From Lewinellaceae bacterium (GTDB lineage: Bacteria; Bacteroidota; Bacteroidia; Chitinophagales; Saprospiraceae): a DNA stretch of 64,000 nucleotides. The stretch is taken from the NCBI GenBank assembly GCA_947476195.1, contig CANJPT010000002.1, forward strand, positions 1 to 64,000, read 5' to 3'. The notes under the pieces are model-generated. The model saw only the letters and a list, made by a program, of their open reading frames with translations. It did no database searches and was not told where the DNA came from. The position numbers and the translations under genes were made by a program. Of the stretch, positions 4,976-53,988 are shown piece after piece (position 1 is the first letter of the stretch; the number at the start of each line of letters is the position of its first letter).

Positions 4976-6316
4976 TCACCCTTTGTATGCTTTGATCTTT
5001 TCTCCAAGCATAAACACATCCTCAAAGGAATTATAAAGTGGCACAGGAGCAAAGCGAATCACATTCGGCTCGCGCCAATCTGCGATTATGCCGTTTTCTG
5101 CAAGAAAATCAAATATCGCTTTACCCCTATCATCAGTGAGCAACGACATTTGACAGCCACGTTGGGTTGGAGCACTCGGCGTAATGACCTTGAACAAATT
5201 GCGCCCGCCATCCGCTTCCGTTAATACTTGTTCCATAAAAGCTGTGAGCCGCAGACTTTTTGCCCGCAGGTTTTCTATTCCCGCGGCATCAAAAATATCG
5301 AGACTGGCTTTATGTGCTGCAAATGAGAATATTTGTGCATTGCTAAGTTGCCAGCCTTCAGCACCGTACATAGGGTGAAATCCTTTTTTCATCTTGAAAC
5401 GCTCCGCCTCATCATGCCCCCACCAGCCCGCAAAACGTGGCAAGTCTGGCGCATTTGCATGGCGCTCATGTATAAATGCACCGGAAGGACCACCAGGACC
5501 TGAGTTGAGATATTTATAGCTGCACCATACCGCAAAATCAGGGCCCCAGTCATGGAGCTTCATGGGTAGATTTCCTGCAGCGTGGGCCAAATCAAAGCCC
5601 ACCTTAGCACCCACGTGATGGCCGGCTTTAGTAATACTTTCTAAATCATAGAATTGTCCGGTGTAATAATTCACCCCACTAAACATGACAAGTGCTACAC
5701 TTTCGCCTTGATCTTCAATTACTTGTAAGATATCTTCAGTGCGCAAGACTTCTTCCCCGTCACGGGGTGTCACTTCTACGATAGCTGTTTCCGGATCAAG
5801 CCCATGCCAACGAGCCTGGCTTTCCATCGCGTATTGATCGCTGGGAAAAGCCCCTGCCTCCATCACGATCTTGTACCGTGTGGAGGTAGGCCGGTAGAAG
5901 GAGGCCATCATCAGGTGCAAATTCACGGTCAAAGTATTCATGACCACTACCTCGTGTGGTAATGCGCCTACCAGGCGGGCAGTTTGCTGCGTAAGGAATT
6001 TATGGTAATGCATCCAGGGATATTCACCCCTAAAATGTCCTTCTACCCCATGTTCAGCCCATTGATCGAGCTCATTCAGGAGGGCCTGACGTATGGCTTT
6101 GGGTTGAAGTCCTAAGGAGTTTCCACAGAAATAGCGGATGTCGTTCCTGCCGGGCGATCCCATACTGATAGTCTCACCTAAAGTGAGACTATCAGTATGG
6201 GAAGGAAAGATAAACTGTTTGCGAAAGTGCCGAAGCGGGTCTTGTGCATCGAGCGAGCGGGCAGCGGCGAGGGTATTTTCGTAACGCATATTGTTCAGGC
6301 TAAAATTTGAATCCAC
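4976..6316 (-). CDS. kynU: Kynureninase
   Basis: YFCGNSLGLQP, GFDLAHAAGN, WCSYKYLNSGPGG, FAGWWGH motifs. Confidence 0.93.
   Translation of the reverse strand: MDSNFSLNNMRYENTLAAARSLDAQDPLRHFRKQFIFPSHTDSLTLGETISMGSPGRNDIRYFCGNSLGLQPKAIRQALLNELDQWAEHGVEGHFRGEYPWMHYHKFLTQQTARLVGALPHEVVVMNTLTVNLHLMMASFYRPTSTRYKIVMEAGAFPSDQYAMESQARWHGLDPETAIVEVTPRDGEEVLRTEDILQVIEDQGESVALVMFSGVNYYTGQFYDLESITKAGHHVGAKVGFDLAHAAGNLPMKLHDWGPDFAVWCSYKYLNSGPGGPSGAFIHERHANAPDLPRFAGWWGHDEAERFKMKKGFHPMYGAEGWQLSNAQIFSFAAHKASLDIFDAAGIENLRAKSLRLTAFMEQVLTEADGGRNLFKVITPSAPTQRGCQMSLLTDDRGKAIFDFLAENGIIADWREPNVIRFAPVPLYNSFEDVFMLGEKIKAYKG
6158..6202. repeat. Perfect palindrome (20-bp arms, 5-nt loop) in frame inside kynureninase
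   Basis: tcccatactgatagtctcac-ctaaa-gtgagactatcagtatggga. Confidence 0.95.
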
Positions 6317-6353: not shown

Positions 6354-6444
6354 CATACTACTGGACATTTTTGTTTTGTCCCCAGACCTATAAGGTTTTT
6401 GAAAACCTTATAGGTCTAGATTTTAGAAAATGTCTAGTAGTCTG
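6354..6444 (+). mobile_element. MITE-like palindromic element, copy 1 (91 bp), TSD ctcgacgag at 6345-6353 / 6445-6453
   Basis: CATACTACTGGACATTTTTGTTTTG...AGACCTATAAGGTTTTTGAAAACCTTATAGGTCT...TTTTAGAAAATGTCTAGTAGTCTG; exact 9-bp direct repeats. Confidence 0.88.
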
Positions 6445-7768: not shown

Positions 7769-7974
7769 AAAGCAGATAAATTTATAGACCAGATAACTTA
7801 GTGCTTGTTGTTTTCACCGTCATAAAACCTATTATTAAACTGTATGCTGTTTTGCCCAGACCATATTACTGAAGCAGAAAATACAAAAGTACTCCAATTG
7901 GTAATCCAACATGGATGGCCAAACTTCACCAGTCGAGTATCGTGCACAAAGTACTAACATCGATTGTCCCAAGG

Positions 7975-8065
7975 CACACTACTGGACATTTTCTAAAATC
8001 GAGACCTATAAGTTTTTTGGAAACCTTTTAGGTCTGGGGGCAAAACAAAAATGTCCAGTAGTATG
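7975..8065 (-). mobile_element. MITE-like palindromic element, copy 2 (91 bp), near-TSD gtcccaag[g/c] at 7966-7974 / 8066-8074
   Basis: Inverted relative to copy 1; 8/9 matching flanks. Confidence 0.85.
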
Positions 8066-39258: not shown

Positions 39259-39330
39259 CATAATACTGGACATTTTTGTTTTGCCCCCAGACCTATAAGG
39301 TTTCGATTTTAGAAAATGTCCGGTAGTGTG
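39259..39330 (+). mobile_element. MITE-like palindromic element, copy 3 (72-bp deletion derivative), TSD ctaatttcc at 39250-39258 / 39331-39339
   Basis: Same ends as copies 1, 2, 4, 5 but lacks one arm of the central hairpin; exact 9-bp TSD. Confidence 0.9.
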
Positions 39331-49169: not shown

Positions 49170-49260
49170 CACACTACTGGACATTTTCTAAAATCAAGAC
49201 TTATAAGGTTTTTGGAAACCTTATAGGACAGGGGGCAAAACAACGATGTCCAGTAGTGTG
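49170..49260 (-). mobile_element. MITE-like palindromic element, copy 4 (91 bp), TSD gatgatgat at 49161-49169 / 49261-49269
   Basis: Same ends and hairpin as other copies; exact 9-bp TSD. Confidence 0.9.
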
Positions 49261-53897: not shown

Positions 53898-53988
53898 CAG
53901 ACTACTGGACATTTTCTAAAATCGAGACCTATTAGGTTTTCAAAAACCATATAGGTCTGGGGACTAAACAAAAATGTCCAGTAGTATG
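53898..53988 (-). mobile_element. MITE-like palindromic element, copy 5 (91 bp), TSD gctttacgc at 53889-53897 / 53989-53997
   Basis: Same ends and hairpin as other copies; exact 9-bp TSD. Confidence 0.9.

Follow-up and report, generated by a model that had tools for sequence, protein, structure and literature searches.

An in-frame palindrome in the kynureninase gene of a Saprospiraceae bacterium is probably a copy of a RAYT-linked, REP-type repeat

The kynureninase gene (kynU) in the window analysed here, a stretch of 64,000 nucleotides from a Lewinellaceae bacterium (genome G000), contains a perfect palindrome within its reading frame. We regard it as very probable that this palindrome is a copy of a REP-type repeat linked to a RAYT gene, which would have entered kynU in the common ancestor of G000 and its sister G005, been tolerated by the protein, and had its symmetry kept by template switching.

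Results and discussion

A palindromic insertion in kynU

The features of the locus are as follows:

4979..6289, minus strand: kynU (kynureninase), the host gene, 437 aa from ATG; open reading frame whose product is above the cut-off of the kynureninase profile TIGR01814 in a profile search (E=5.7e-139)
6158..6202, minus strand: 45-bp perfect palindrome, read as SHTDSLTLGETISMG, with 20-bp arms and a 5-nt loop
6164..6196, minus strand: 33-bp REP-like core ACTGATAGTCTCACT-TTA-GGTGAGACTATCAGT, with covariance model matches of 57.6 and 50.6 bits
6158..6163, no strand assigned: outer 6-bp arm TCCCAT (plus strand), prolonging the perfect symmetry past the 33-bp core
6197..6202, no strand assigned: outer 6-bp arm ATGGGA (plus strand), complement of 6158-6163

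The first-pass annotation had described a perfect palindrome lying in frame in this gene, preceded by FRKQFIFP and followed by YFCGNSLGLQP, and both the element and its placement are confirmed: the arms (6158-6177 and 6183-6202) are complementary at 20 of 20 nucleotides (100%), with 5 nt between them. Perfect arms of at least 20 with a loop of at most 6 are expected by chance 4.7e-7 times per 64-kb sequence of the window's composition, and the longest arm in first-order Markov simulations (n=20) was 12, versus 20 in kynU.

Alignment of more than 100 KynU orthologs bears out the suggestion that the palindrome is an insertion, as extra residues between the FxFP and YxCGNSLGLQP motifs occur only in G000 and G005. 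The linker had been expected to be shorter in kynureninases, and in the other orthologs it is indeed ~15 residues shorter; in the wider family it varies, being longer at this place in human kynureninase, so that the site is length-variable across the kynureninase family. The claim of a 15-codon insert stands as a net gain of 15 codons relative to insert-free orthologs, but the inserted block is not exactly the 45-bp palindrome, because orthologs also have the CAT (His) codon found at the palindrome's edge. The repeat unit is therefore better defined as the 33-bp core (11 codons, TDSLTLGETIS) with a symmetric 6-bp extension, and it is this core that also occurs beside a RAYT gene and in dadA.

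The insert of G005 (a Saprospiraceae MAG, 79% complete, with kynU on contig L034) comprises 17 residues of a sequence unlike the window's, yet it holds a near-perfect palindrome, with the core ACTGAGGGCCTTACT-TCA-AGTAAGACCCTCAGT; the residues are thus not shared by an ortholog that lacks the symmetry. Both palindromes lie just after the same His codon region, their phase is identical, and three stem positions are changed on both arms with pairing kept. These observations also bear on whether the palindrome could be an assembly or binning artefact, i.e. a foldback read or a chimera. The assemblies are of metagenome type and in many contigs, and perfect palindromes are a known type of artefact; however, the separately assembled G005 has an in-frame palindrome at the same kynU codon, and the dadA palindromes described below are common to two assemblies and recognisable in four, which makes an artefact extremely improbable.

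In the KynU tree, built from the region downstream of the insert, G000 and G005 are grouped (support 95/92), and this group is adjoined by G033 and G024, which are insert-free at kynU. The simplest history compatible with the sequences would be a single insertion before G000 and G005 parted, after which the two copies diverged symmetrically; the alternative, given the clearly different G005 core, is that the site received two insertions or that a core was replaced. Neither an exact junction nor a target-site duplication was established at the kynU site.

The insert corresponds to approximately residues 31-45 of KynU. The AlphaFold model of the protein has a mean pLDDT of 89.5, and its only segment below 50 (residues 33-47), hence its only segment predicted as disordered, falls within the insert region. 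According to this model the insert would form a floppy loop, apparently tolerated by the protein, and we infer that KynU still works with it. It could be argued that selection recruited the peptide for a new function in the enzyme, as it has been kept in two species and the human linker is longer at this very point. Against this stand the predicted disorder of the insert, the differing sequences of the sisters and the presence of very similar peptides in unrelated proteins, and we consider selection of this kind very unlikely.

The window also carries five MITE-like elements of ~72-92 bp (6354-6444, 7974-8065, 39259-39330, 49170-49260 and 53898-53988), with terminal inverted repeats CAxACTACTGGACATTTT...AAAATGTCCAGTAGT and flanking 8-9-bp direct repeats that resemble target-site duplications. 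One of the five lies just upstream of kynU and contains a perfect palindrome, AGACCTATAAGGTTTT-TG-AAAACCTTATAGGTCT (6384-6417), whose core also flanks a different RAYT gene in the relative G021 (L171).

A dispersed family of 33-bp hairpins

A search of the genome for other copies of the palindrome revealed that its 33-bp core belongs to a dispersed family, though the exact 19-mer arm is found only at the kynU site. One further site matches this arm with 3 mismatches; its interpretation as a chance match was rejected, since the site holds another copy of this hairpin, located between genes. The inner 12-mer retrieved paired copies at several loci of G000. The repeat unit consists of 15-bp arms and a 3-nt loop, following the pattern ACTGATAGTCTCACT-nnn-AGTGAGACTATCAGT, and cores begin with ACTG, AGTG or ATTG.

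The family was surveyed with two covariance models, R1 built for the window's palindrome family and R2 for the G005-type core; G000 was covered by model searches and by 400 kb of stretches, and all copy counts are model matches rather than insertion events. R1 found matches in 11 of the 42 genomes and none in the other 31, with the highest numbers of strand matches in G010 (89) and G011 (133). There are ~8 close copies of the window's core in G000, where R2 yields 68 strand matches at E<=0.01, representing a wider family; R1 and R2 matches together amount to ~37 real sites of this wider 33-bp family. The kynU core of G005 is joined to it only through R2, and a search with that core as a sequence in four genomes found no high-copy exact family. 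All genomes compared are fragmentary, metagenome-type assemblies, several of them incomplete, and their genes are named from profile matches.

The dispersal of the core bears on the choice between a mobile source and a local one, in which template switching on a short quasi-palindrome would have built the element within kynU without any mobile element. Template switching is known to make and perfect inverted repeats in coding DNA (PMC8604942), and both the symmetric edge of the insert (TCCCAT/ATGGGA) and the mirrored changes in orthologous palindromes agree with it. A purely local origin nevertheless predicts no shared sequence, yet copies of the 33-bp core are found at unrelated loci, within dadA and flanking a RAYT gene on either side. 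We find such an origin hardly credible: the dispersed same-core copies largely refute it, with template switching remaining as a likely process of maintenance. Nor is the kynU palindrome a single ancestral copy, since the genome has related copies at other loci, within other genes and next to a transposase gene.

In G011 (L247-L286) the core often forms the middle of perfect palindromes that are much longer, with arms of up to 56 nt. Many of these have outer motifs such as TTTACCGCAGAGGCG...GAGGCACTTAAA, which suggests nesting in another repeat. The idea that the long arms are inverted duplications of the host flanks was dropped after comparison with G010, because the outer motifs recur and several orthologous sites carry another palindrome.

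Copies inside conserved genes

Nine of the ~37 sites in G000 are located inside conserved genes, counting as hosts the ORFs recognised by Pfam or NCBIfam: those for KynU, a DadA-like FAD oxidoreductase, MurD (TIGR01087), IcmF, ApbE, a GH3 protein, a PMT_2 glycosyltransferase, an FGGY sugar kinase, and a RAYT (on contig C5). These in-frame palindromes substantiate the likeness to coding-region palindromic elements such as the RPEs that the first-pass annotation had pointed out. Eight of the nine start on a codon boundary (phase 0) and encode 11 residues with the pattern S-E-x-x-T-x-S-x-x-L-T, while the copy in the FGGY kinase is in a different phase, in which its core is stop-free. As most cores contain a stop codon in another phase (checked for the window's core), at least part of the phase bias is forced, and the bias alone provides no evidence of targeting. 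The same pattern is found in hosts from related genomes, namely a Mur ligase, TrmN, PRA isomerase, an ABC transporter, STAND, Roc-COR-TIR and beta-helix/PA14 proteins.

The DadA insert is present in G000, G005, G033 and G024 and absent from the other orthologs aligned, and the MurD insert is present only in G000 and G033 among the orthologs aligned; judging from these alignments, both are clade-restricted insertions like that of KynU. A beta-helix/PA14 protein has a 33-bp palindrome at the same codon in L239 (G024), L244 (G033) and L397 (G005), with differing sequences.

The distribution of the copies is also relevant to the possibility that the hairpin is retained as an RNA element, e.g. a regulatory or mRNA-stability structure in kynU. 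Its 45 nt as RNA have a predicted fold of -35.9 kcal/mol, and REPs near gene ends may act at the RNA level (PMC3733652). However, only two of the more than 100 KynU orthologs have the hairpin, with sequences that differ, and the unit also resides in unrelated enzymes; an RNA role in kynU is thus a poor candidate, which we judge most improbable.

Association with RAYT genes

Two RAYT genes were identified in G000:

G000:C6:23973-24560: candidate RAYT gene, matching NF047646 (REP-associated tyrosine transposase) with E=1.2e-12, below the curated cut-off
L219:18165-18875 (G000:C5), minus strand: second RAYT gene, with its own 33-bp palindrome in frame, read as SEAVTPSHRLT

Both proteins fall under the curated cut-off of NF047646 (47.9 and 45.8 versus 80), and Pfam gave no match for either of them, while NCBIfam did. 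The C6 RAYT has the motifs NHFH (MPNHFHWLI) and YIHENP, with LFRQ in place of WQ, and the Y motifs of its relatives read YIHINP, YIHNNP and YIHQNP. Its gene is enclosed by copies of the unit, the upstream one in a 92-bp perfect inverted repeat and the downstream one in a 45-bp inverted repeat. In the C5 RAYT, the in-frame palindrome (core AGTGAGGCGGTGACT) sits between the HuH and Y motifs, and each end of the gene carries further copies; similar in-frame palindromes occur in the RAYTs of L155, L156 and L157, and the C6 RAYT has none.

At almost every one of 30 RAYT loci, taken from G000 and 29 related genomes, palindromes lie within or next to the gene; their arms commonly measure 15-16 bp and their loops 1-3 nt, and their sequence is particular to the locus. 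The RAYTs closest to those of G000 come from G010 (65%) and G011 (64%), which are also the genomes richest in R1 matches; no close RAYT was found in G005, G033 and G024 despite their R1 matches, these genomes being incomplete. We link the repeat to the RAYT on the basis of the flanking position and of the copy number that parallels RAYT similarity, and this sequence evidence suggests that the C6 RAYT probably spreads the 33-bp repeat.

Symmetric change and replacement of cores

The DNA of G010 and G011 is ~90% identical, and their orthologous intergenic palindromes exhibit mirrored pairs of substitutions on both arms, with loops flipped between TTG and CAA. Homogenisation of arms and inversion of spacers have been credited to template switching by polymerases (PMC8604942), and the mirrored changes and inverted loops would be as expected from it; we propose that template switching, rather than selection for the hairpin, keeps the symmetry. 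Across the family, 12 of 15 pairs are changed on both sides, in agreement with symmetric change, and pairing in alignment A5 is 97.7%; both values are partly circular because most sites were picked with models that score pairing, whereas the comparisons of orthologous sites are independent.

Orthologous sites may also differ by the whole core. In dadA, G000 and G005 have GATAGTCTC, and G033 and G024 have partly decayed cores of a GAGGG type at the same codon. Different cores also occupy the G011/G010 sites L253/L318, L278/L315 and L256/L323, and the site L258/L307 is empty in G010. The three occupied sites are intergenic, with GACGGGGTGACT-type cores in G010 and GAGAGTCTCACT-type cores in G011. 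From such comparisons it follows that the palindrome at a given place is either symmetrically changed or replaced. In both dadA and kynU, the differing cores of sister species share codon, length and phase. It is tempting to speculate, though we think it rather doubtful, that new REP families owe part of their spread to the overwriting of older REPs at their existing sites, either by RAYT-guided exchange between REP hairpins or by template switching seeded by another copy. If so, coding copies would switch family without ever breaking the frame.

We propose the following scenario for kynU. A RAYT of the single-strand HuH/Y1 type, whose gene lies at another locus of the genome, would spread a 33-bp hairpin REP unit, and a copy would have entered kynU in the common ancestor of G000 and G005. 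That copy may have survived because 33 nt preserve the frame, because it landed in a surface loop of naturally variable length, and because its phase reads stop-free as 11 mostly polar codons (T/S-x-x-x-T-x-S/G-x-x-x-S/T). Later template switching between the arms would have kept them complementary, so that changes became symmetric on both.

Relation to known systems

The family displays the traits of REPs: a short palindromic unit (33 bp, within 20-40 bp), dispersed repeats, and copies flanking a RAYT gene. The GT[AG]G or CGTC tetranucleotide foot of the tagged REP super-families was not found in the cores examined, although some related RAYTs do show GTAG...CTAC (L156). The missing foot excludes the tagged super-families but not the RAYT linkage, since RAYTs with atypical structures have been described (PMC6006769).

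The RAYT/TnpA-REP subclass 2.4 (Bertels group 4, PMC6006769) has the HuH motif NH[IFV]H, matched by NHFH of the C6 RAYT, and an in-frame REP inside the RAYT between the HuH and Y motifs, as in the C5 RAYT. It differs in that GT[AG]G feet are not evident in the present core and that copies of the present family are also found in many conserved host genes. Where PMC6006769 gives a WQ motif and the Y motif YIxNNP for this subclass, the RAYT here has LFRQ and YIHENP; the YIHINP, YIHNNP and YIHQNP of the relatives also fit subclass 2.6. The latter (Bertels group 5, PMC6006769) is mostly from Bacteroidetes; YIH[QN]NP occurs in related RAYTs here, and the atypical flanking secondary structures copied through the genome are a further likeness. 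On the other hand, its HuH motif is NH[LIV]H versus NHFH, the Y motif of the C6 RAYT is YIHENP, and in-gene REPs are described for 2.4 and not for 2.6. The present element thus resembles published REP systems in most of the features compared, apart from the foot, while its RAYT motifs are intermediate between those of subclasses 2.4 and 2.6. We therefore file it as a REP-type, RAYT-linked repeat outside the tagged GTAG/CGTC super-families.

Intragenic REPs have been reported from several species in a paper that also recalls the in-frame RPEs of Rickettsia (PMC3733652). The intragenic GTAG/CGTC REPs reported there, from Opitutus terrae and others, are likewise short palindromes in unrelated conserved ORFs and read through in frame, but they belong to other sequence families, with a foot that the present cores lack, and neither Saprospiraceae nor the present host genes are among those given in the sections consulted. 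RPEs (Ogata et al. 2002, via PMC3733652) are likewise palindromic repeats in frame in many protein genes, a likeness of arrangement that implies no relation in sequence. The CGTC-type rickettsial repeats are stated in PMC3733652 to have no associated transposase, whereas the present family flanks a RAYT gene. Publications thus already cover RPEs, REPs within genes and REPs lying in frame in RAYT genes; less familiar are the symmetric evolution of coding palindromes and the finding that one and the same codon position holds different cores in sister species. A literature search that excluded most subscription journals found no paper on palindromic elements in Saprospiraceae.

Conclusions

The coding palindrome of kynureninase gains a source in a transposase-linked repeat family, and what was probably a mobile, selfish DNA repeat has turned into protein sequence. 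Conserved enzymes of Bacteroidota, the cell-wall ligase MurD among them, take up sequence from such repeats, which is not a peculiarity of Rickettsia. It has long been asked by what means RPE-like coding palindromes move, and here the same genome encodes a candidate enzyme. With sister species that have and lack the inserts, or that carry different cores, the entry of the repeat, the keeping of the frame and the persistence of symmetry become directly addressable.
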